Shown one piece after another: positions 3,913 through 14,591 of a DNA stretch of 32,955 nucleotides. The position numbers and the translations under genes were made by a program. The DNA lies in assembly GCF_002848135.1 (NCBI RefSeq), contig NZ_PKGB01000023.1:1-32955 (forward strand), written 5' to 3'. The stretch's first letter is position 1; every line of letters starts with the position of its first letter. The DNA is from Hydrogenovibrio sp. SC-1. Its GTDB lineage: Bacteria; Pseudomonadota; Gammaproteobacteria; Thiomicrospirales; Thiomicrospiraceae. The notes under the pieces were generated by a model. It worked only from the letters and a program-made list of their open reading frames with translations, had not been told where the DNA came from and did no database searches.

Positions 3913-5268
3913 TTAGAACAAATGGCTATAGCGCTCGATTTCCCAAGCTGAAACAGTTTGATGGTAGGATTCCCACTCTGCCGTTTTGTATTTAATGAAT
4001 TCATCGCTAAGCCCTTTGCCAAGCGTTTTCTCAACAAACGGATCGGCTTTAAAGGCCTCAACAGCTTCCAGTAAATTTTTCGGCAAGAACTCAATGCCTC
4101 TGGCTTCGCGCTCGGCTTCGGTTAAATCATACAAGTTATCTTCTTGTGGATTGCCTGGATCGAGTTTTTCACGAATGCCTTCCAGCCCCGCTGCCAACAC
4201 TAAAGTGGATGCCAAATAAGGATTCACCGAGCCATCAGCATTGCGCGATTCAAAGCGACCACCGCCCATAGGGACTCTGACTGAGTTGGTTCGGTTGTTT
4301 GAACCAAAGGAATTAAAGACTGGCGCCCAAGAGAAGGTGGCCATATCACCCTGTCGAACCAACCGCTTGTAGCTGTTCACGGTGGGCGAAAACACCGCAC
4401 AAAGTGCTGGGCCATGTTTTAAAACACCGGCAATAAAGTGATAGCCAATATCCGTTAGCCCCAAGCCTCGTGGGTCGTCTTTTGGATCACATTTAAAAAC
4501 GTTTTCACCGGTTTCTTTATCAAATAAAGACATATTAAAATGCGCGCCATTACCGGTTTTATCGGCAAAGGGTTTGGGCATAAAGGTGGCCAACAAGCCT
4601 TCTTCTTGCGCATAATGTTTTGCCATATAGCGGAAGAAGATAAACCGATCACACATGGTCAATCCATCGCTATATTGGAAATCAAACTCATATTGACCGT
4701 TAGCGTCTTCGTGATCGAGTGAATATAAATCCCAGCCTAGATCGTTAATGGTAGTCGCCATTTTGTCTAACCAGGTAAAACGATTCATAAAGCTGCGAAC
4801 GTCATAGCAAGGCTTGGTTAATTTGTCGTCCTTGTCGGGCACGGATAGGCGGCCATCATCTTTTTCTTTCAGCACAAACAATTCACATTCGATACCCAGA
4901 TTAAAACCAAAGCCCATTTCTTCGGCTTCGGCTAATACTTTTTTCAGAGCCACGCGGGTATTGATCTCATAAGGTTCACCATGCAGGGTATTGTCTGCAG
5001 CCATCCAAGCGACTTCTGGTTGCCAAGGCAACTGAATTAAGCTGTTTAAATCGGGGACGGAAGCGATTTCATCTTCATTGGGTTTTTGCCCCAAGCCATC
5101 CAAGGCATATCCGGTATACAATTCAGACCCTTTAACCATGTGATCTAAATGATCAATTGGCACAAACTTCCCTTTAGGGATGCCGTGTATATCAACATAA
5201 GCACCTAAACAGTATTTGATGCCTTTGTCTTTTAGGGTTTGTTTGGTCGTTTCAATATCATTTGCCAT
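3913..5268 (-). CDS. glnT: Type III glutamine synthetase-like ligase (glutamate-ammonia or glutamate-amine ligase)
   Basis: The 451-residue protein is of the short GlnT/GMAS class. Known members join glutamate's gamma-carboxyl to ammonia or to an amine (for example gamma-glutamylmethylamide synthetase) using ATP. Visible signatures are the beta-grasp start, the metal-binding GIECEL (125-130), [27 protein letters not shown] and [24 protein letters not shown] resembles the adenylylated-tyrosine region of class I enzymes. The ATG follows AAGAGA and lies 14 nt after the creatininase gene, so the two are one transcript. Sequence alone does not tell ammonia from amine as substrate. Linkage to a creatininase-family hydrolase and a binding protein argues for an amine. 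A second, lost paralogue left its tail at 581-634. Confidence 0.85.
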
Positions 5269-5282
5269 AACGTTTATCTCTT

Positions 5283-6050
5283 TTATAGGTTTGTTTTATC
5301 AAAATAGCCATAATCTAGCGGTGCGGTTTCAGCCATGCCTTTTTTCACCACTTTGCTTAAATCTTCAACCATCCAATCGAATAACTCTGTGCCCCTTTCA
5401 AGGGTTGCCAAGCTTGGGCTTCCCGTGACCCCATTCAAACTGGTTCGATTAACGGGATGTGAAAAAACACTGTCTTCGGTTCGATCTGGATCGTCACTGT
5501 CTTGCAATTTATCTTCACGTACGAGTTGTGGTGCCACGGCCATCATTAAAGACGTTTCAGCTTCATTGGCATGCCAATCTTCAGCATCTTCAAAATGACG
5601 TGCTTTGACCCTTTCGCTAACCGAAGCCGAATTGATCAATGCCACCATAAAGCCATCATGTTCGGCACGCAGTATCTCTAAAGCACACCGCAAGGGTGCA
5701 AAGTTGGAAACATGACTGTTTAAAATAAACAGTCGCTTAAACCCTGAGTCATGTACCCAATCACCGATGTCTTTCACCACATCAATTAGGGTTTTGGGTT
5801 GCAAGGCAATGGTGCCTGGCCAACGCTTTGAATGGCCGATGGAACAGCCATAAGGCAAGGTTGGTAACAATGCCACTTGAGTTTGTTCAGCGACCTTTTC
5901 TGCAAGTTGATGGGCTATCTCTGAATCCATTCCACAGCCCAAATGCGGACCATGCTGCTCAGTTGCGCCCACCGGCAATATCGCGGAATCGATGCCGGAA
6001 CTAACTAATAGGGAAACTTCCTCCCATGTCATCTGATGCCATTGATTCAT
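5283..6050 (-). CDS. Creatininase-family amidohydrolase
   Basis: The 255-residue metal-dependent hydrolase belongs to the creatininase/MftE/FAPy-deformylase superfamily. The metal-site strand [20 protein letters not shown] (25-44) supplies Glu, His and Asp. LNSHVSN (110-116) replaces the usual NGHGGN, and [10 protein letters not shown] supplies further conserved His and Glu. Family members open cyclic amides or cleave formamides and similar C-N bonds. The substrate here is unknown. I take the ATG at 6050 (AGGTAG 5 nt upstream) over the GTG at 6080, which lacks a ribosome site. It is cotranscribed with the glutamine synthetase-like gene 14 nt downstream. The altered NGHGGN loop suggests a specialised subgroup. 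Confidence 0.82.
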
Positions 6051-6148
6051 ATTGCTACCTAAATCCCCTTTTTTATACACAAACGGATCCCTTAGCCAGA
6101 AGATGTTCTTCTAACAAGCTTTTGAATATAAAAAGAATTTAATAAAAA

Positions 6149-6171
6149 ATAGCCGCAAGAACTGCGGCTAT
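6149..6171 (-). terminator. Rho-independent terminator after the substrate-binding protein gene
   Basis: Perfect 9-bp stem ATAGCCGCA (6149-6157) with TGCGGCTAT (6163-6171), loop AGAAC. It is followed on the minus strand by a T6 run. It separates the binding-protein transcript from the creatininase-ligase pair, so abundant binding protein can be made without equal amounts of the enzymes. Confidence 0.9.
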
Positions 6172-6197
6172 GATTGTTCATAACGACGGGGGTTGAA

Positions 6198-7175
6198 TTA
6201 CAATCCCTGTGTTAAAGAAGCATCAATGTATGAATCGATTTTTTGTGGATCAGCGTAAACTTTATTGGCAACGTTAAAGTCGTCAGAAAGTTTTGTTGAA
6301 CCGTAGATAGAGCTGAATCCATCGCCTTTTTTGAAGTGTTTCTTCGCTTCTTCAAGCGTCAGAATCTTGGTGCCTTCTACAAACTTACCATACTTTTCAG
6401 GTGATAACCCAACACGTGATGCCATGATTTTGATTGCATCCGCTTTGGTTTTAGGATCATTGACATAATCCACCACTTTATACCAAACTTTAGCAACCTT
6501 TTCCCACTTAGCACGAGCGGCTGAATAGCTGCTTGGAGAAACACACAACATATCGTAAATCAGGCCAGGTTCATCGGCACTGGTATAGATGGCTTTTGAC
6601 CCAGGAACCAAATCTAAAGCAGAACCTGAACTAGGCTGCCATGCAACAATCGCGTCAACCTGACCAGACGCCAAAACTTGTGGTGTTTCATTGGTTGGAA
6701 CATTAACCAACGTTACATCAGACTCTGACATCCCATTGTCTTTTAATGCATTTAACAGTAATAAGTGACTCACGAAACCAACTTCGACGCCCACTTTCTT
6801 ACCTTTTAGATCTTTAATCGAATCAATGCCTGGTGCACCAATCACCATGTCATTACCATTACTGTAGTCGTTCATTAAGAACATCACACTTTGTGCGCCT
6901 GTAGCACCGGTCACCAAAGCATCACCATTGGTCATACCAACCGCATCCAATTGTCCTGCGGCAAATGCGTCCATTGAAGCGACATAGTCAAACCATTCAA
7001 ATTGAACATCCACCCCTTCTTCAGCAAACCAATCCTTTTCGATGGCCACTTCCCATGCTACCCAGCCAGGCCAATCACTATAGCCAATTTTTAAAGGCTC
7101 GGCGCTGACAGACAGAGCAGAGGTTGAAAGAAATAATCCTGCGAAGAAACCGACTAACGACTGACGTGAGAACAT
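6198..7175 (-). CDS. ABC transporter substrate-binding protein, NMT1/THI5-like, urea-carboxylase-associated type
   Basis: The 325-residue periplasmic protein has a signal peptide (cut after about residue 25, VSA-EP). The mature start [20 protein letters not shown] is typical of the SsuA/TauA/THI5 fold. The stretch [21 protein letters not shown] and the following [11 protein letters not shown] resemble binding proteins found beside urea carboxylase (guanidine or urea utilisation) genes. That is recalled family similarity, not a search. AGGGTGG precedes the ATG. No permease or ATPase gene is adjacent, so it is an orphan and must dock with a transporter encoded elsewhere. Its own terminator lies downstream, and an NtrC-type box and a palindrome lie upstream. 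A small nitrogen-rich solute is the likely ligand. Confidence 0.82.
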
Positions 7176-7269
7176 ATTGGTACCACCCTAAGTTATTACA
7201 AATTGAAAGAAAGGTAATAAACATTAAACAGACTGTATACCAATAAACTTTTTAGCTTACATTTCATAG

Positions 7270-7287
7270 CGTTATAATTTTATAACG
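7270..7287. promoter_or_regulatory. AT-rich inverted repeat upstream of the binding-protein gene
   Basis: CGTTATAA, TT, TTATAACG: perfect 8-bp arms, 95 bp before the start codon at 7175. It could be a repressor or activator operator, or part of a promoter, since on the minus strand it contains TATAAAAT. No regulator can be assigned. Confidence 0.45.
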
Positions 7288-7337
7288 AAAATAACCACTA
7301 TAAATCACACCAACATTTAACAAATACAATCATAAGC

Positions 7338-7352
7338 GCATTATATTGGTGC
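7338..7352. promoter_or_regulatory. NtrC-type box upstream of the binding-protein gene
   Basis: GCATTATATTGGTGC (plus strand) matches 13 of 15 positions of the box at 11026-11040 read on the minus strand. It agrees well with the enteric NtrC consensus (GCAC..A-N3-TGGTGC) on its right half. It lies about 165 bp upstream of the start at 7175. I found no GG-N10-GC sigma-54 element between it and the gene, so its role is uncertain. Confidence 0.4.
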
Positions 7353-7353
7353 A

Positions 7354-8208
7354 CTATTGTCGTCGCGCTTCCAAGAAGGCCGCCAAGACAATTAAGGTTC
7401 CACCCACCATTTCATATGGGGAAAGCGTTTCTCCCAATAGGATGCTGGCGGAAACCACCGCGGTAACCAATTCAAAAATCACAATAATTGAAGAACGGCC
7501 CGCTTCCATGTGCGTGACGGCCCACTGAGTTCCCAAGTTTGCAGCCATCATCCAAACGGCGGCATAAACCCCTAATAATAACCAGGCCTGGTTGCTCACC
7601 TCTAGATTCCATGGACTTTGTTCGGTGGCTAACAGCAAAATTGACGACAACAGCACCGCCCCCAAAAACATAAAGGCCAATTTACTATAAACCGATACGG
7701 TGGGTGACACGCGAAAAACAATATTATTCATCGCAAACAAAAACCCGGATAGCAAGGCAACTGCATCGATCCATGAAGGTGGTGCAATAAAGGCATTCAT
7801 ACCACCCACCACTAAAAACGCACCGATAACTGATAAACCGACACCTAACCACCTGACGGCATCAATTCGTTCTTTGAGAAAAATTCGACCGCCCAGCACT
7901 CCCCAAAGTGGCACCAAATAAAACAACACCATGACCCGAATCACTTCGCCATAGATTAACGCGGTATTAAATGCTAACTGTGCGCCCCCTCCTAACAAAG
8001 CAACACCGACAAGGATTCGCCAGTCTGATAGTAAATATCGTCTCTGCCGCCAACACCAAGGCAACATAATGACCAATAACGCTAAGTAAACAAAGAAAGT
8101 TAGGGCAATGCCGTGAAAGCCTTGCTCGTGAAGCGATTTCAATGGCAACCAAGTCAACCCCCATAAAATGGACGCCACAAAAAGAACAATAACCGCGCGG
8201 TTTTGCAT
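7354..8208 (-). CDS. EamA-family (DMT superfamily) transporter
   Basis: The 284-residue integral membrane protein has about ten transmembrane helices in two EamA repeats. It begins VIVLFVASILWGLTWLPLKS, with repeat 2 near SWIDAVALLSGFLFAMNNIVF. The second repeat ends GGTLIVLAAFLEARRQ. Family members export or import amino acids, drugs or metabolites by secondary transport. I choose the ATG at 8208, which has AAGGA 8 nt upstream; the track of open sequence extends to 8229. It is the last gene of the operon starting at 10902, 33 nt after the TIM-barrel gene. In context it probably moves the pathway substrate or a product. One copy of the CCAGGCCTGG repeat (7582) lies inside it and encodes NQAWLLL. 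Confidence 0.85.
   Translation of the reverse strand: MQNRAVIVLFVASILWGLTWLPLKSLHEQGFHGIALTFFVYLALLVIMLPWCWRQRRYLLSDWRILVGVALLGGGAQLAFNTALIYGEVIRVMVLFYLVPLWGVLGGRIFLKERIDAVRWLGVGLSVIGAFLVVGGMNAFIAPPSWIDAVALLSGFLFAMNNIVFRVSPTVSVYSKLAFMFLGAVLLSSILLLATEQSPWNLEVSNQAWLLLGVYAAVWMMAANLGTQWAVTHMEAGRSSIIVIFELVTAVVSASILLGETLSPYEMVGGTLIVLAAFLEARRQ
7582..7591. repeat. CCAGGCCTGG repeat inside the EamA transporter gene
   Basis: Extends to a perfect 14-bp palindrome AACCAGGCCTGGTT (7580-7593). On the minus strand it is followed by TTATTATTAGG, matching the AT-rich tail seen at other copies. Confidence 0.85.
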
Positions 8209-8241
8209 AAATAATTCCTTAATAAACACTCAGCGTGTAAT

Positions 8242-9093
8242 TTACGCCTGTGTCATAAACTGGTTGAAATGGTGACGTTCAGTTTCCGCCATCCATTGAT
8301 TGATTTGCCAAATATCGGCAACGGGGGCTTGAGTGAAAGGTAACAAATGACAATACCCATCCGGACCAAACTCTGGCGTCATGGTGGTAAAGGCACGCTG
8401 CTGATCCAAATGATTTTGCCAAACGGTTTGCCAAAAGTTTTGATGAGAATGCAGTGCGGGTTGATATTCTGGTGCGGCTGGGTGCGGCACCTGCGGCCCT
8501 TGATCATAACCCACACGAGCATGCAGATGATGCACCTTGGGCGCCAACTGCGTTAAAGTGTCTAACTCTGAATCCATTAACCGTTCACACACCACACACC
8601 AATGACTAATATCGGCCGTCAGTTTCATTTCGGGCAATTGCTCAACCATCCTCAGAGTTGTCCAAGGGTTGAATAAAGGACGACTGCGGTGCGTTTCAAA
8701 GCAGACGGGTATATCATAGTCTTTAGCAATTTCGAGCGCGGCACCATAAAAATCAACGCTTTTGGATTCTTCCCAGGCATCACAACCGGTTAGACAAGTT
8801 GCCAATAATGGCGAGAGACTCATGCTGGCCTCTAGCCGTTTTTGAAACTCTTCCAGATGTTGCTCTGGCGTCCAATCTCGCTGGGGAACATAGTCTCCAC
8901 CTGTGACGATTTCGGCAATATAATCCAGATCATGCCATCGCAACATCCCACTCCATTGCTGTTGATCATTTCGATCTAAAGGCGCAGGTCCTTCAATGCC
9001 TTGAAAATTAGCAACCGAAGCCTGTTCACAAGCTTGCTCAAAAGACAGTTGATGTCCCCATAGGGTTTTAAACAATTTCAGTTGCATTGCCAT
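8242..9093 (-). CDS. Xylose isomerase-like TIM-barrel (sugar phosphate isomerase/epimerase family)
   Basis: This 283-residue protein belongs to the AP-endonuclease-2/IolE fold. Predicted metal ligands lie in order at the barrel mouth: Glu in CFETHRSR, Asp-x-x-His in TADISHW, His in HHLHARVG and Glu in TPEFGPDGY. Family members isomerise, epimerise or dehydrate sugars and hydroxyacids. The substrate here is unknown. Its ATG overlaps the upstream lactamase-fold gene stop as TAATG, indicating translational coupling and therefore a shared pathway. The protein is unusually rich in Trp and His near its C-terminus. It precedes the EamA transporter by 33 nt. Confidence 0.78.
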   Translation of the reverse strand: MAMQLKLFKTLWGHQLSFEQACEQASVANFQGIEGPAPLDRNDQQQWSGMLRWHDLDYIAEIVTGGDYVPQRDWTPEQHLEEFQKRLEASMSLSPLLATCLTGCDAWEESKSVDFYGAALEIAKDYDIPVCFETHRSRPLFNPWTTLRMVEQLPEMKLTADISHWCVVCERLMDSELDTLTQLAPKVHHLHARVGYDQGPQVPHPAAPEYQPALHSHQNFWQTVWQNHLDQQRAFTTMTPEFGPDGYCHLLPFTQAPVADIWQINQWMAETERHHFNQFMTQA

Positions 9094-9875
9094 TACTCAA
9101 AATAATTTGGAAAACGATTATGACGTTGAAAAAAGTCCCAATCATGATTAGGCCAGATCACTGCTTGATTCTTCTGACTCAGCGATTTCAATTTTTGAAT
9201 GCTTTGAACGGCCATCGCCGCATCGTCCTGCCAGCAGAGCCCCGGTGCCACTTCTTCATCGATATTTTCTTGTAGGTCCGCTGCATCACCCGCCAATAAA
9301 ATCGGTTGTCCTTTAGGTAATTCAATTAACATCGACATATGTCCAGCGGTATGTCCAGGCGTTTCAATCGCACTGACGCCGGGAGCCAAATCATACTCAC
9401 CGGTTTGCAGTTTCCAGTTTAGCGGCAGTTCAAAGTCTGAAGCAAAGTAGGCCTCATCAGCTGGTTCCTTTGCAGCTTGCATTTCTTTCGCATGCACATG
9501 CACTTCTGCATGACAAAATTCACACAAGCCGCCGGCATGGTCAAAGTGCAGATGACTACAAAACACCAAATCAACATCTTCTGGTTTTAAGCCCAACACC
9601 TCAAGTCGATTTGGTAATCGCTCTTCTTCAGACATTTCTGGTGGCCCAAACGGAAAGCCATCATGCTCGTAATAATGTTTTCTTTGATCTTGTTGTTGAA
9701 TCTTTTGATAATCACAACCGACATCAAACAGAATACGACCATTCAAGGTTTCAATTAAGTAAGCCAGGATGGGGGCTTTAATAATCTCACCTTGCCCTCT
9801 TCCTCTGGTTGATAAGGTTTTTTCATAAGTGTGCCGCCCAGTTAAGATGGGCCAAAATTTGGTAACGTGTGTCAT
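9093..9875 (-). CDS. Metallo-beta-lactamase-fold hydrolase (N-acyl homoserine lactonase-like family)
   Basis: The 260-residue enzyme has the zinc motif HLHFDH (108-113) in SHLHFDHAGG. Further metal residues lie in TPGHTAGHMS, AGDAADL and PNHDWDFF. This arrangement matches the AttM/AiiB lactonase-like branch, whose members hydrolyse lactones or other esters and amides. Quorum quenching should not be assumed. Position inside a metabolic operon, with a coupled TIM-barrel gene on its 3' side, suggests a catabolic lactone or amide substrate. AAAGGG lies 6 nt before the ATG. It follows the desaturase-fold gene by 16 nt. Confidence 0.82.
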   Translation of the reverse strand: MTHVTKFWPILTGRHTYEKTLSTRGRGQGEIIKAPILAYLIETLNGRILFDVGCDYQKIQQQDQRKHYYEHDGFPFGPPEMSEEERLPNRLEVLGLKPEDVDLVFCSHLHFDHAGGLCEFCHAEVHVHAKEMQAAKEPADEAYFASDFELPLNWKLQTGEYDLAPGVSAIETPGHTAGHMSMLIELPKGQPILLAGDAADLQENIDEEVAPGLCWQDDAAMAVQSIQKLKSLSQKNQAVIWPNHDWDFFQRHNRFPNYFE

Positions 9876-9891
9876 GTCTAACCCTTTACGG

Positions 9892-10902
9892 TTAATGCGC
9901 GGTTAAAAAAGAAACGCCATCAACCCCAATAAACGTTTCACCTTCATCCTGCTTTACATCCAAGTCCACTGGATCGCCATTTAAAATGCGTGGTACTCGA
10001 TAACGGTGAAAACTTTTTACGAGGTGTTTGAAGGTCAATTGTTGAGGATGGTCTATGTCGAACATCTCGGCGTTCAGTTTCGGTAACCGATACCAAGGTT
10101 GCAACATACTGGCATGGTGTACATTGTGATAGCAAAAGTTTAATACCAGTAAGTTCAACCAAGGGTAGCGAACCGACAACAGATTAGAATAGGTATTGCG
10201 TTGCTCAAATTCGGCATCACGTAACTTGGCCTCTGGCCCCCGTTTTTGATCCAGAGTTTCGAACACTTCATAGGTATGTTGATGAATATCCATAAAGCGC
10301 ATAACGGTTAAAAACAGTAAATAGGCCAATGGATATAGCCACAACACATGCCAAGAAATTGAAACTAACCACGCAAAAAAAACCACCCGTAATATTAACG
10401 CCATCATAACGCGCCCTCGCCGCTGTCGACGACTGGGTTTGATAAAAGGTAACAGAACCACCATTAGGTGCATCCATATTTCCAGCGCGGGGATATACGC
10501 CCATTCAAATGCTTTAATTACTTTCAGCAATAGCGGGTGCTTTGGTATGGTTTCACGAAAATCAAAAGAAACAATATCGGCACGATCAATATGATGTCGA
10601 TTGTGTTTGTGCTGAACATCATCAAAATGAGAATAACTGCAACCGGTAATCCACAGACAAACTTCTGCGAACCAGCGATTGTGAGTCTTTTTTCGAAACA
10701 AACTATAGTGAGCGGCTTCATGTAATAGATAGGAAGCAATGACCATTGAGTGCGCTAACAAAACCACCCCCAGCAAACTCCACAGTGACGGCTCCAACAG
10801 CAATAAGCCGAACCCCACGATATAGGTCAACAGCACGTAGCTAAACGCCATTAAATTTGGCAAGATTGCATCATCATGCCTAAACAAACCCTGATTTTGC
10901 AT
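9892..10902 (-). CDS. Membrane fatty-acid desaturase-fold di-iron enzyme (desaturase or hydroxylase)
   Basis: The 336-residue integral membrane protein has the histidine boxes of the desaturase superfamily: HEAAH (61-65), HKHNRHH (98-104), HQHTYE (207-212) and HNVHH (259-263). Hydrophobic helices lie at about 17-35, 38-58, 137-155 and 165-200. Such enzymes use O2 and reducing equivalents to desaturate or hydroxylate acyl chains, alkanes or other small molecules. Being first in an operon with two hydrolase/isomerase-type genes and a transporter, under a sigma-54 promoter, it more likely oxidises a small nitrogen-containing substrate than membrane lipid; that is inference. AGGA lies 8 nt before the ATG. 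No ferredoxin or reductase gene is adjacent. Confidence 0.82.
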   Translation of the reverse strand: MQNQGLFRHDDAILPNLMAFSYVLLTYIVGFGLLLLEPSLWSLLGVVLLAHSMVIASYLLHEAAHYSLFRKKTHNRWFAEVCLWITGCSYSHFDDVQHKHNRHHIDRADIVSFDFRETIPKHPLLLKVIKAFEWAYIPALEIWMHLMVVLLPFIKPSRRQRRGRVMMALILRVVFFAWLVSISWHVLWLYPLAYLLFLTVMRFMDIHQHTYEVFETLDQKRGPEAKLRDAEFEQRNTYSNLLSVRYPWLNLLVLNFCYHNVHHASMLQPWYRLPKLNAEMFDIDHPQQLTFKHLVKSFHRYRVPRILNGDPVDLDVKQDEGETFIGVDGVSFLTAH

Positions 10903-10946
10903 TGAACCATCCTAGAATTATTTTTAGACAATAATTCAGAGTGATT

Positions 10947-10962
10947 AGCAGCGTCCATGCCA
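10947..10962 (-). promoter_or_regulatory. Sigma-54 (RpoN) promoter for the desaturase-fold operon
   Basis: The minus strand reads TGGCATGGACGCTGCT. It matches the consensus TGGCACG-N4-TTGCW at all but two defined positions and has the exact GG-N10-GC spacing. The predicted start of transcription is near 10936, giving a leader of about 34 nt before the ATG at 10902. The NtrC-type box at 11026-11040 lies about 90-100 bp upstream, a usual enhancer distance. Confidence 0.68.
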
Positions 10963-11025
10963 CAAAGTTAGGTTATTGATAACTCAAATAAAATCTGATT
11001 TTAACTATTTTCATATACCCTTAGC

Positions 11026-11040
11026 GCACCAATTTAGTGC
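11026..11040. promoter_or_regulatory. NtrC-type enhancer box
   Basis: On the minus strand GCACTAAATTGGTGC fits the NtrC dyad consensus (GCACYA-N3-TGGTGC). Together with the sigma-54 element at 10947-10962 it predicts activation under nitrogen limitation. Only one good copy is seen in this gap. Confidence 0.6.
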
Positions 11041-11157
11041 TTCATTACAGAGCGATTCAGAATAAACAGACTCACTCGCTGAAACCAATAAAAATCCTCC
11101 GACATCAGTGCTGTATTTCGGTAAACTATCCGTCCGAATTCATCAACTATCGACATT

Positions 11158-11598
11158 ATGTTTTATACAACCGAAAGAGATAAAATGCGCCAGTTCTTTG
11201 CGGATACCTGGCAAAAAGCAATCCAAAATGTGCCACTGGATGCAATGGAACAACAAGTTGCAAAAGTGATTGAAATGCATCCGGAATATCATGCGATGCT
11301 CAATAACGCTAAGCACCTTGGTAATGACTACTTACCCGAAATGGGGGAAACCAACCCATTTTTACACATGGGCATGCATTTAGGCCTGCAAGAACAAGTG
11401 GTGTTGGATCAGCCTGCCGGTATTCAAGCCATTTACAGCCAGTTAGGAGAACGCCTTAAAGATGTCCATGAAACCGAACATGCCATGATGGACTGTTTGG
11501 GGGAAGCGCTATGGCAAGCACAACAAAATGGCGGCTTGCCGGATGAATCGGCTTACTTTAGCTGTTTAACTCAATTGGTTAATCCAAAGGAAGATTGA
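11158..11598 (+). CDS. DUF1841 family protein
   Basis: The 146-residue soluble protein matches DUF1841 from memory of its conserved features: an N-terminal RDKMRQFFADTWQKA helix, HPEYHAML, a central NPFLHMGMHLGLQEQV and a C-terminal ALWQAQQNGGLPDE. The function is unknown. The family is common in beta- and gammaproteobacteria, and its conserved His and Glu residues could bind metal. The ATG at 11158 is preferred over 11185 because the family usually begins just before RxQ/MRxFF. One base separates its TGA from the next gene, so the two are coupled. It is divergent from the desaturase-fold operon. Confidence 0.8.
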   Translation: MFYTTERDKMRQFFADTWQKAIQNVPLDAMEQQVAKVIEMHPEYHAMLNNAKHLGNDYLPEMGETNPFLHMGMHLGLQEQVVLDQPAGIQAIYSQLGERLKDVHETEHAMMDCLGEALWQAQQNGGLPDESAYFSCLTQLVNPKED

Positions 11599-12413: not shown

Positions 12414-12439
12414 CATTTTAGAATCATTCCCGCTATAAT
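12410..12439 (+). promoter_or_regulatory. Sigma-70 promoter of the cobalamin operon
   Basis: -35 TTAACA (12410-12415), 18-nt spacer, -10 TATAAT (12434-12439, perfect). Transcription should begin near 12446, immediately before the riboswitch. Confidence 0.8.
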
Positions 12440-12449
12440 GCGCTTTTTT

Positions 12450-12606
12450 AGGTGCTGGTGAACTCAATACGCCAGTTAAACGGGAAGTTTGTGCAAATCA
12501 AACGCTGCCCCCGCAACGGTAATAGAGAAGACAAATGATCATGCCATTGGAATTACTTCCGAGAAGGCCATTTGAAATTGCTCTTAAGCCCGGAGACCGG
12601 CCTGAA
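12450..12606 (+). ncRNA. Cobalamin riboswitch (adenosylcobalamin-type)
   Basis: The conserved landmarks appear in order. GGTGCTGG opens the element (about 12451), followed by GTTAAACGGGAA (12475-12486). The core GCTGCCCCCGCAACGGTAA is at 12504-12522. A P7/P8-like ATGCCATTGG and GAGAAGGCC follow (12541-12569). The B12 box AAGCCCGGAGACCGGCC is at 12586-12602. Binding of cobalamin should lower expression of the btuB-cobO-btuF operon. The strong promoter starts transcription just upstream. Confidence 0.95.
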
Positions 12607-12610
12607 AAGG

Positions 12611-12670
12611 GTCAGCAAATGCTGACACAACCGATTGCGGTGGGCAATACGGCGTGTATTTATCTTTTTT
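12611..12670 (+). terminator. Probable riboswitch expression platform
   Basis: After the B12 box are a perfect hairpin GTCAGC-AAAT-GCTGAC (12611-12626) and a second hairpin CCGATTGC-GGTGG-GCAAT-A-CGG (12631-12652). A T-rich tail ending TATCTTTTTT (12661-12670) follows. The second hairpin plus T run could be the ligand-controlled terminator. The gap between the hairpin and the T run is longer than ideal, so translational control remains possible. Confidence 0.45.
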
Positions 12671-12770
12671 GGTTAGGTCTGTGCCGTTCAAAGGACAAGC
12701 ATTCCTATCGGTTAAGCTAAGTCTCCGTTTTGCCTTCGTTCATTATCAATATGAATTGAAGGAAACTTTC

Positions 12771-14591
12771 ATGAAAAAAACCACATTACAAGCAGCCCTT
12801 TTAACGCTGCTAACCCCTACGATCACCCTTGCGGCCAGTAGTCAAATCGATCCGATCATTGTCACGGCGCATAATTCGCAAGAGTCGGCTCAAGCCGTCA
12901 CCTCAAAAATGCATATTATCAGTCGTCAGCAAATTGAAGAAAAACAATACCAAACCCTAGAGGATGCCTTGCAGGAATTGCCTGGATTTTTCAGTACTCG
13001 TAATGGCGGCTTAGGAAGCGCAACGTCCGTTATGCTGAGAGGCCAGTCAGCCAAACACATTTTGGTATTGCAAGATGGCATTGAACTCAATGACCCCATG
13101 AATATCAATGGCGCCTATTTTGAAACTTTGAACCTTGATAATGTCGAACGTATTGAAATCATCAAAGGTGCTCAATCCGCACAATGGGGCAGTGGCGCTA
13201 TGTCAGGTGTCATCAATATCATTACGCGTCAGGCTTCTAATCAAGCTGGTTTCGGCTATGAAGCGGGCAGTTATGGTTTCCAAAAGCTGCGTTTTGCTGC
13301 TGGCGCTAAACAACAGAATGCCGATTTTTCTGTAAACTTCTCGACTTTAAAAACCGATGGTTTCAGTGCGGTCAAACCTTACCAACGGTCAACCGATGGC
13401 TTGGAAAGTGATGGTTATCAGCAAACCGATTTAGGCATTAAAGTAGGGATTAATCCATCTCAAGGGCACCGTATTGAGACGAACTTTCAGCAACGTCAAG
13501 CGCAAGGCGAAATCGATTACGGAAATGACCCCAGTGCCGATGCCAACAGTGAGCTTAAAAACAGACTACGCCAATTGCGTTACCAATTTAGCGGGGACAC
13601 GGTTCAATTTACTGCCAGCGCCCAAGACACCGAAAGTAAAACGCTTTATTCTGCTGGAAAGCTCACCCAAGCGTTAACGCAACTGAATTGGCAACCTCAA
13701 GCCAATCAAACACTACGCCTAGCCATGGATAAGCGCTATCTCAGCAACCAGAATTCAAACACAAATAACTATGATCAACTGGGCTATAGCGCCAGCTTAC
13801 AGCAACAGCTTTTGGAGGATACCTTAGTTTTGAATGCCGGACTGCGCCAAGATGAATACTCTTTATACAACAATAAAAACACGGGCAATATTGGCCTCAA
13901 GGGTCAATTGACGATTGACAGTTATTTAGCTGCGAATTATGGCACCGCCTATCGTGCGCCCTCTCTAGCAGAAATCAGTTATACCGATGCTGCGGCCCCG
14001 ATGCTGACACCTGAGACCCAAACCAGTTATGATGTCACGTTTCACATCAAGGGGTTTGAAATCAGTTATTTTGATGCCAAAATTGGCGATGAAATTGATT
14101 ATGATTTAAATACCGGCAGTTTTGGTAGTTATGTCAATCTTGATGGACAATCGCACTACCAAGGTATCGAAGCAAGTTATCAGAGAGAATGGTTAGCACT
14201 GGCAAGCCAATTGAATCTGCAATACAGCCAGCAAACGGCGAAAAATGATGCCGGAGAATGGTTGGCCAGACGCCCTGCTTCTCAAGCCAGTGTCAGTTTC
14301 GACAACTATCAATTATCTGATACCCATTTAGGCATCCGCGTACGTTATGTGGGTGAAACCTTTGATGAGCCTAACCAAACCGGTGCTCAGATTGGCAACT
14401 ATACGGTCACGGATTTGGTAGCTGATTATCAGCTTAACGCGCACTTAACGGTTTATGGTAAAGTGTTGAATCTGTTTAATGAAGATTACACCACGGCCGT
14501 TGGTAGCCCTAGAGGCGGTATCTCTACCCCAACGTTTGTCTATGCCAATGGCGGCACACAAGTGTTTGTCGGTATTAAAGGCCAACTCTAA
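12771..14591 (+). CDS. btuB: TonB-dependent vitamin B12 receptor BtuB
   Basis: The 606-residue outer-membrane receptor takes up cobalamin with TonB energy. It has a signal peptide (residues 1-21), the TonB box DPIIVTA (27-33) and a plug domain (about 45-155). The plug includes LEDALQELPGFFSTRNGG, SVMLRGQSAKHILVLQDGIELND and GSGAMSGVINIITR. A 22-strand barrel follows, ending in an aromatic-containing QVFVGIKGQL. The open frame extends to 12654, but GAAGGAAA lies 6 nt before the ATG at 12771, which also starts the signal peptide. The riboswitch directly upstream assigns the ligand. The cobO gene follows 10 nt downstream. Confidence 0.93.
   Translation: MKKTTLQAALLTLLTPTITLAASSQIDPIIVTAHNSQESAQAVTSKMHIISRQQIEEKQYQTLEDALQELPGFFSTRNGGLGSATSVMLRGQSAKHILVLQDGIELNDPMNINGAYFETLNLDNVERIEIIKGAQSAQWGSGAMSGVINIITRQASNQAGFGYEAGSYGFQKLRFAAGAKQQNADFSVNFSTLKTDGFSAVKPYQRSTDGLESDGYQQTDLGIKVGINPSQGHRIETNFQQRQAQGEIDYGNDPSADANSELKNRLRQLRYQFSGDTVQFTASAQDTESKTLYSAGKLTQALTQLNWQPQANQTLRLAMDKRYLSNQNSNTNNYDQLGYSASLQQQLLEDTLVLNAGLRQDEYSLYNNKNTGNIGLKGQLTIDSYLAANYGTAYRAPSLAEISYTDAAAPMLTPETQTSYDVTFHIKGFEISYFDAKIGDEIDYDLNTGSFGSYVNLDGQSHYQGIEASYQREWLALASQLNLQYSQQTAKNDAGEWLARRPASQASVSFDNYQLSDTHLGIRVRYVGETFDEPNQTGAQIGNYTVTDLVADYQLNAHLTVYGKVLNLFNEDYTTAVGSPRGGISTPTFVYANGGTQVFVGIKGQL

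Follow-up and report, generated by a model that had tools for sequence, protein, structure and literature searches.

A desaturase-containing gene block of Hydrogenovibrio sp. SC-1 linked by gene context to guanidine metabolism, with a candidate oxidase for guanidine release

The 32,955-nucleotide (nt) contig NZ_PKGB01000023.1 of Hydrogenovibrio sp. SC-1, referred to here as the window (contig C23 of the 41 that make up a 2.45 Mb genome), carries seven open reading frames (ORFs) between positions 3913 and 10902, all on the minus strand, which we designate des, mbl, tim, eamA, sbp, crn and glnT (Table 1). It is nearly certain, judging from the sequences of the window and its relatives, that this block belongs to guanidine metabolism; the substrate class is taken to be guanidine compounds because of the gene neighbourhoods and riboswitches of the relatives. 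As a whole, the material is best explained, with a probability that we put at roughly 0.55, if the block constitutes a substrate-specific front end of guanidine assimilation in which guanidine would be freed by a des-type oxidase. Oxidative release of guanidine by des is itself at best slightly favoured, and methylguanidine in particular is a doubtful candidate for the substrate.

Within a sample of 93 genomes (58 of the window's family and 35 others of its class; cut-offs of E up to 1e-30 for des and up to 1e-10 for tim), des was present in 23, every one of the same family as the window, and tim was present in the same 23; sbp shows 70-100% identity in these 23 genomes and 29-37% in three others. 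Inspection of the window and the loci fetched from the other 22 des genomes revealed that des, mbl, eamA and sbp are grouped in all 23 (sbp is cut by a contig end in G003), in the order sbp-des-mbl-tim-eamA or des-mbl-tim-eamA-sbp, with tim in line with the block in 21 genomes and 24-29 kb off in the other two (G002 and G009). The crn and glnT genes (glnT with 86-100% identity) occur together in 15 of the 23, adjoining the block in 14 and on another contig in G042; each of the 15 family genomes having crn also has glnT, and eight of the 23 hold the des block without close homologues of crn and glnT. The linkage pattern therefore separates a core module, des-mbl-tim-eamA-sbp, from an optional one made up of crn and glnT. 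Genes that the first-pass annotation had proposed as a set from the window alone do co-occur in other genomes (23 of the 58 family members, with crn/glnT in 15 of those 23). The separate tim loci of G002 (L052 6975-11563) and G009 (L059 8011-9312) contain a MarR-like gene and lie near an allophanate hydrolase gene, and that of G002 also has a second desaturase, 44% identical, and its own ATP-binding cassette (ABC) transporter genes. A scan of genome contigs with tim alone returned a single locus, 82% identical, in a Piscirickettsiaceae metagenome-assembled genome.

In bacteria that assimilate guanidine by carboxylation, the carboxylase Gca acts first, followed by the carboxyguanidine deiminase CgdAB and the allophanate hydrolase AtzF (PMC11410670, PMC12186494). 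In many relatives, the neighbours of the block are an allophanate hydrolase, a biotin-dependent carboxylase and urea carboxylase (UCA)-associated DUF1989 proteins. A CgdAB pair, taken in the 93 genomes as two strong Pfam DUF1989 matches of more than 195 bits each, was detected in 22 of the 23 block genomes versus none of the 35 other family members, two of which (G031, G049) have a single weaker match; the block genome lacking a strong pair, G003, is a draft of 120 contigs with a weak DUF1989 fragment only. The pair is also found in three of the 35 other class genomes (G058, G076, G083). Of the 20 genomes in which des and CgdAB share a contig, 18 have them no more than 25 kb apart, and in G025 one strand reads cgdA-cgdB-gca-atzF-des-mbl-tim-eamA-sbp-crn-glnT consecutively. 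Furthermore, a guanidine-II riboswitch directly precedes des in two of the 23 family genomes (L065, L067).

In the window's own genome, contig C30 carries an ABC ATPase gene (at the contig end), a gene for a NikR-like regulator, cgdA, cgdB, gca and atzF. Of its two DUF1989 genes (C30:12264-13518), one is 62% identical to the cgdB of L082 and the other scores above the UAAP1 cut-off, and atzF reaches 741 bits with TIGR02713 (cut-off 511); the CgdA and CgdB pair and the AtzF that mark the guanidine carboxylase pathway are thus both found. In Gca (the L091 protein), Asp722 aligns with Asn1330 of urea amidolyase from K. lactis (5i8i); Asp versus Asn at K. lactis position 1330 is one of two residue criteria separating guanidine from urea carboxylases, the other being Asp at position 1584 (PMC11410670). 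The regulator encoded between the ABC ATPase gene and cgdA (L091 13571-14047) is a ribbon-helix-helix protein with a NikR C-terminal domain. In the near complete relative G008 (L110), permease and ATPase genes precede cgdA, and the 19 kb fetched contain no binding protein of the sbp kind. Because that transporter comes without such a protein, sbp is most likely the missing subunit of the transporter encoded beside the guanidine-carboxylase genes. The description of sbp as an orphan therefore holds only locally: it has no partner in the window, but a permease and an ATPase accompany the guanidine-carboxylase genes in L110, and an ATPase is encoded on C30 of its own genome.

The association recurs in other families. 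A wider class sample of 369 genomes was searched with all three of tim, crn and des under a cut-off of E up to 1e-40: 8 genomes have tim, 9 have crn and 11 have des, of which 6, 7 and 9, respectively, lie outside the family. Thirteen genomes outside the family hold tim, des or crn; one of them, G083, has the CgdAB pair, as stated above, and a pair of about 190 bits or more is present in 10 of the remaining 12 versus 3 of 68 controls (G100, G113, G147; Fisher p 1e-8, relatedness being ignored in the Fisher tests), six of the controls showing one or two weaker DUF1989 matches that were not counted as a pair. Guanidine riboswitches identified with Rfam head the des or sbp-des operon in six of the nine des loci outside the family, those of L093, L095 and L098 being guanidine-II riboswitches that directly precede des, and those of L105, L108 and L109 guanidine-I riboswitches ahead of either des or sbp-des. 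L092 holds des-mbl-eamA, tim and sbp-permease-ATPase together with cgdA, cgdB and gca, the riboswitch preceding gca; L106 and L107 have neither a riboswitch nor linked guanidine genes. In G175 (L098), a single run reads [Gd-I]-sbp-permease-ATPase-crn-glnT-[Gd-II]-des-tim-[Gd-I]-cgdA-cgdB-gca-atzF, where Gd-I and Gd-II denote guanidine-I and -II riboswitches; its gca (L098 5925-7925) covers residues 465-1137 of the query only, and the biotin-carboxylase part and biotin carrier would be either absent at that place or encoded elsewhere.

The transporter and the optional pair exhibit the same linkage. Homologues of sbp with 70-80% identity stand beside an ABC permease in all seven fetched outside-family loci holding one (L092, L093, L095, L097, L098, L100, L101), in L098 behind a guanidine-I riboswitch, and sbp is most likely the binding protein of an ABC transporter for guanidine or a guanidine compound. 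The crn and glnT genes lie between the ATPase gene and cgdA in L094, L095, L100 and L101, and between sbp-permease and cgdA in G083, where guanidine-I riboswitches occur before sbp and at cgdA; in G083, G140 and G201, crn/glnT accompany a guanidine transporter and CgdAB, with no des-family desaturase at E 1e-40. When 21 desaturases were arranged in a tree, the riboswitch label was spread over more than one clade (three changes, with a count as low in 500 of 500 shuffles), and the tree does not show a single origin of the guanidine link. A second operon type behind a guanidine-I riboswitch was observed at L105 4559-11641 and L108 8394-13618, with genes for a binding protein, a desaturase, one or more short-chain dehydrogenase/reductase (SDR) dehydrogenases, another creatininase-family protein and the same metallo-beta-lactamase (MBL); L105 additionally has genes for an isochorismatase-family hydrolase and EamA. 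The presence of dehydrogenases suggests that a hydroxylated intermediate is oxidised and then hydrolysed. A distant desaturase relative on a Gloeothece plasmid (L081 9797-11376; 36.5% identity) adjoins an annotated ectoine synthase, with a tryptophan 7-halogenase further on, and probably has another function.

A clue to the role of des comes from loci in which a different oxidase accompanies tim. Demethylation of methylguanidine by the 2-oxoglutarate (2OG) oxygenase MgdH and the lyase MgdL has been proven in Vreelandella (PMC12508155). The ORFs of our block include an FA_desaturase instead and no 2OG/Fe(II) dioxygenase gene. On a Paraburkholderia sprentiae plasmid, homologues of mbl (58% identity), sbp (57%) and tim (47%) occur with the complete carboxylase pathway and with guanidine-I and -II riboswitches; here, tim overlaps a gene for a 2OG/Fe(II) oxygenase, and the 20.8 kb examined contain no desaturase. 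This oxygenase is 48% identical to that of a guanidine locus on an Acinetobacter sp. plasmid, where genes for a small multidrug resistance (SMR) transporter, a protein without a Pfam match and the 2OG oxygenase lie inside a guanidine-carboxylase locus (L087 12958-15184). The protein without a Pfam match has a D-x-R motif, read from its sequence, like the catalytic Asp49/Arg51 of MgdL (residues from PMC12508155), and the trio is possibly a relative of MgdH/MgdL outside halophiles. No BLASTP similarity was detected between tim and this MgdL-like protein, which served as a stand-in for MgdL itself. Given the oxidase swap at tim, the simplest inference is therefore that des would take the role of the 2OG oxygenase and that tim, found with either oxidase, would serve the step after it. 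A tim-family gene also adjoins a 2OG/Fe(II) oxygenase gene in Klebsiella pneumoniae CP125156.1 (L084 6904-13881), G201 (L099 9627-12559) and Kozakia (L083 196-9889), with an agmatinase-type ureohydrolase nearby in L084 and L099 and an arginine-deiminase-family protein instead in L083; all three have another ABC transporter, and L083 and L084 have class II aldolase and glyoxylate/hydroxypyruvate-reductase genes. This set looks like a separate guanidino-compound pathway.

The individual proteins fit such roles to different degrees. In des, the three histidine boxes that define the membrane fatty-acid desaturase/hydroxylase superfamily (HxxxH at 61/65, HxxHH at 100/103/104 and HxxHH at 259/262/263) are present and invariant in 21 of 21 aligned rows, and its predicted fold, a medium-confidence model with a predicted local distance difference test (pLDDT) score of 75.7, resembles AlkB (Z 10.3-10.8; root-mean-square deviation (rmsd) 4.7 over 254 residues); these features support the earlier suggestion of a di-iron oxidase. 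The best match of the model was a chain of the chloroplast FtsHi motor complex (Z 18.3, rmsd 3.7 over 284), and PDB profile searches with des and tim returned nothing. The window's des has no match to the GntB model NF041365 (cut-off 380 bits), which matches one of the 21 desaturase rows and scores 33 bits (E 3.2e-8) with the L095 relative; the window's des and most rows score better with DesA than with GntB. AlphaFold predicts a ketose-3-epimerase-like fold for tim (pLDDT 90.6; Z 21, rmsd 3.2 over 245 residues), with invariant Glu133, Asp161, His189 and Glu241, which we take to fit the metal sites of this fold. The mbl product has an HLHFDH motif and its nearest solved structures are AiiA lactonases, but it falls below the AiiA N-acyl-homoserine lactonase model NF045699 (158 vs 375 bits), and sbp is of the SsuA/TIGR03427 type, under both cut-offs. 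The crn product scores below the creatininase model TIGR04448 (132 vs 235 bits) and reads NSHVSN for NGHYEN, with Ser opposite the Glu that serves creatininases as a metal ligand; creatinine was rejected as a substrate on account of this cut-off and motif residue. Finally, glnT is above the type III glutamine synthetase model TIGR03105 (678 vs 470 bits) and under the PuuA model NF045547 (261 vs 650 bits), its nearest solved structure being the glutamate-methylamine ligase 9qur.

Table 1. Genes of the block and putative regulatory sites in the window
Feature	Position	Strand	Description
des	9892..10902	-	membrane protein of the fatty-acid desaturase fold, possible di-iron enzyme hydroxylating a guanidino compound; PF00487 FA_desaturase 9.8e-39
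mbl	9093..9875	-	metallo-beta-lactamase-fold hydrolase, AiiA/pyridoxolactonase type; PF00753 Lactamase_B 8.3e-19
tim	8242..9093	-	xylose-isomerase-like TIM barrel, candidate lyase/isomerase partner of the oxidase; AP_endonuc_2 1.7e-6, below Pfam cut-off
eamA	7354..8208	-	drug/metabolite transporter (DMT)-superfamily transporter; PF00892 EamA 6.3e-31; ATG start, listed ORF from GTG 8229
sbp	6198..7175	-	periplasmic binding protein, NMT1/SsuA type; Pfam NMT1 7.3e-19
crn	5283..6080	-	creatininase-family amidohydrolase; ATG at 6050; PF02633 Creatininase 8.3e-72
glnT	3913..5268	-	type III glutamine synthetase-like ligase; Gln-synt_C 1.2e-92
sigma-54-type (-24/-12) promoter site TGGCATGGACGCTGCT	10947..10962	-	begins 60 nt before des start
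NtrC-type box (palindrome) GCACTAAATTGGTGC	11026..11040	.	upstream of des; arrangement repeated in G003, G008
second NtrC-like box, one mismatch	7338..7352	.	upstream of sbp; without clear sigma-54 site

The layout of the seven same-strand genes, re-derived from ORFs, Pfam matches and spacing, agrees with that first given: 16 nt between des and mbl, a TAATG overlap of mbl and tim, 33 nt between tim and eamA (counted from the eamA ATG) and 14 nt between crn and glnT. Elsewhere in the window, a cobalamin riboswitch (12433-12619) upstream of a TonB-dependent-receptor-like ORF (12654-14591) is ordinary.

Sites matching the sigma-54 promoter and the NtrC-type box that the first-pass annotation had ascribed to the upstream operon were found ahead of des, and they are common to part of the family. 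The sigma-54-type site is the only match in the window, where 0.34 are expected and at least one occurs in 24 of 100 shuffles, and taken alone it is weak. The NtrC-type palindrome is the sole full match among nine at up to two mismatches (3.94 expected; six shuffles reach nine). The two sites are credible because they stand jointly upstream of des and recur in relatives: within 300 nt upstream, a sigma-54-type site (at most two mismatches) occurs at 13 of 23 cluster heads versus 2.8% of random stretches, and an NtrC box (two or three mismatches to the 17-nt consensus) at 9 of 23 versus 2.7%, the background being random stretches of the same loci on both strands, coding sequence included, with base composition not matched to intergenic regions. 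Where the pair is clearest, the sigma-54 site follows the start of the NtrC box at a distance of about 80-110 nt. The heads with a guanidine-II riboswitch (G025, G035) have no such sigma-54 site, and at eight further heads neither such a site nor, where scanned, a guanidine riboswitch was found. Nitrogen control thus appears to operate in part of the family, the window included, and guanidine sensing in a few members; the sigma-54 and NtrC-type sites lend support to the original idea of a nitrogen-scavenging gene set. A riboswitch within the window was also considered as a candidate and rejected after Rfam scans, as was the possibility that guanidine riboswitches lie near most family clusters (2 of 22 scanned loci only, L065 and L067).

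The sequences themselves establish that the block is conserved and linked to guanidine assimilation, that relatives have riboswitches at these positions, and that promoter sites and the carboxylase pathway are present. From gene context, we infer the reactions of the block, its substrate and regulation, and the roles of MBL, TIM, EamA, crn and GlnT, as follows. Nitrogen limitation would turn the block on through NtrC and sigma-54, and sbp, together with the permease and ATPase from the guanidine-carboxylase locus, would import guanidine and/or a small N-substituted guanidine, methylguanidine being the simplest candidate and a guanidino acid conceivable. The di-iron membrane enzyme des would then hydroxylate the carbon adjoining the guanidino nitrogen, and tim and/or mbl might split or otherwise process the hydroxylated product to guanidine and a carbonyl product, while EamA may carry substrate, product or surplus guanidinium across the membrane. 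The guanidine would be turned into ammonia by Gca, CgdAB and AtzF, whose genes lie on a different contig of this genome, and GlnT may assimilate that ammonia; crn might be an accessory amidohydrolase of the same pathway. We regard it as an even proposition that des represents a new class of guanidine-releasing (N-dealkylating) hydroxylase, non-homologous to the 2OG oxygenase of guanidine operons whose place it would take and acting with TIM-barrel and MBL partners; chemolithoautotrophs and other Gammaproteobacteria would then assimilate substituted guanidines by a route so far undescribed.

Several observations weigh against a guanidine-releasing front end. The proposal depends on a candidate substrate deduced from gene context, and simple demethylation would not require MBL, EamA, crn or glnT. 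The window shows no guanidine riboswitch at the Rfam gathering threshold and, in a scan of 10850-11200 at E up to 10, only unrelated weak matches; likewise, Rfam scans of 22 family des loci (the window and 21 fetched loci, with L075, L059 and L076 lying outside the scans) left 20 without a guanidine riboswitch, the search of all 93 genomes having covered guanidine-II, under stricter filters, and not guanidine-I. Outside the family, G223 has no CgdAB and G318 a single DUF1989 match only, and within the 20 kb fetched no guanidine genes are linked to the distant des relatives of G223 and G268. Moreover, the pairing of tim and a 2OG oxygenase beside an agmatinase-type ureohydrolase in Klebsiella and G201 raises the possibility that the pair acts on a larger guanidino compound.

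This last observation, along with another ABC transporter at those loci, would suit a reading in which des hydroxylates arginine, homoarginine or another guanidino acid beside the guanidino group to give guanidine and an aldehyde acid. The same chemistry is described for 2OG oxygenases, namely the ethylene-forming enzyme and plant 2-ODD-C23 (PMC11018352), and the L095 relative of des does match the GntB arginine hydroxylase. However, this match lies far under the cut-off (33 of 380 bits), concerns one of 21 rows and is absent for the window's des, and the linked sbp is of the NMT1/SsuA type common to plain guanidine-carboxylase loci; we consider such a substrate unlikely. Somewhat less likely still is that the block releases no guanidine and has a role in converting or detoxifying it or one of its derivatives; EamA would then serve for export, and the riboswitches and NtrC sites would reflect guanidine load. 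SMR guanidinium exporters belong to the same DMT superfamily as EamA, and an SMR gene is present in the Acinetobacter guanidine locus, but the NtrC/sigma-54-type sites and the linkage to a complete assimilation pathway favour nitrogen acquisition.

The first-pass annotation had suggested gamma-glutamylation of the PuuA/IpuC/GMAS type, in which GlnT would gamma-glutamylate an amine after its import, with oxidation by the desaturase-type enzyme and hydrolysis of the product by crn. Although the nearest solved structure of GlnT is a glutamate-methylamine ligase and crn keeps company with glnT in all 15 crn-bearing family genomes, the ligase is not an obligatory first step of the desaturase reaction because 8 of 23 family genomes have the des block without close GlnT or crn; the pair also occurs without a detected des in G083, G140 and G201, and GlnT does not reach the PuuA model (261 of 650 bits). 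This scheme is not specifically supported, and we think it improbable. A chance assembly of unrelated genes, or their general co-regulation, is scarcely credible: the crn-glnT pair and the des block are apart in some genomes, and tim lies 24-29 kb off in G002 and G009, but the grouping is kept in 23 genomes and recurs in several other families with guanidine riboswitches.

A front end that frees guanidine for the carboxylase pathway has one of its closest parallels in the MgdH/MgdL operon of Vreelandella boliviensis, which likewise adds an oxygenase and a second enzyme to a riboswitch-controlled guanidine-carboxylase system with an ABC importer (PMC12508155). It differs from the present case in several points: the window has sigma-54/NtrC-type sites, the block's oxidase is a desaturase-fold membrane protein, and its partners are a TIM barrel, an MBL, EamA and, optionally, crn and GlnT. 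All enzymes of the Gca-CgdAB-AtzF pathway are encoded in the window's genome and usually near the block in relatives, but the block itself lies outside the pathway as described (PMC11410670, PMC12186494). GntB, the L-arginine hydroxylase of guanitoxin synthesis, called a transmembrane enzyme (PMC10367076), acts on a guanidino compound and shows a remote match with a des relative; the window's des shows no match at threshold, and GntB is biosynthetic, not assimilatory. The ethylene-forming enzyme and the plant homoarginine-6-hydroxylases release guanidine through hydroxylation beside the guanidino group (PMC11018352) but are 2OG/Fe(II) enzymes, in contrast to the desaturase fold of des. A review that names the guanidine-forming enzymes known by 2025 counts three guanidine-synthesis pathways in bacteria and a further one in plants and algae (PMC12186494); NapI is called a desaturase there and a 2OG enzyme in PMC11018352. 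The literature, surveyed in part, yielded no description of guanidine operons that include a gene of the desaturase, TIM-barrel, creatininase-like or GlnT type, although a mention in the main survey of guanidine use (10.1111/mmi.14702) is possible; in keeping with the earlier statement, no described pathway with this gene combination was found in that portion of the literature.

The source of free guanidine in nature has been a standing question since the guanidine riboswitches were found. If our explanation is correct, guanidine release by a desaturase-fold enzyme would extend the range of enzyme classes known for this step and would provide a substrate class for an uncharacterised desaturase family. 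It would also suggest that sulfur-oxidising autotrophs use guanidine compounds as a nitrogen source.

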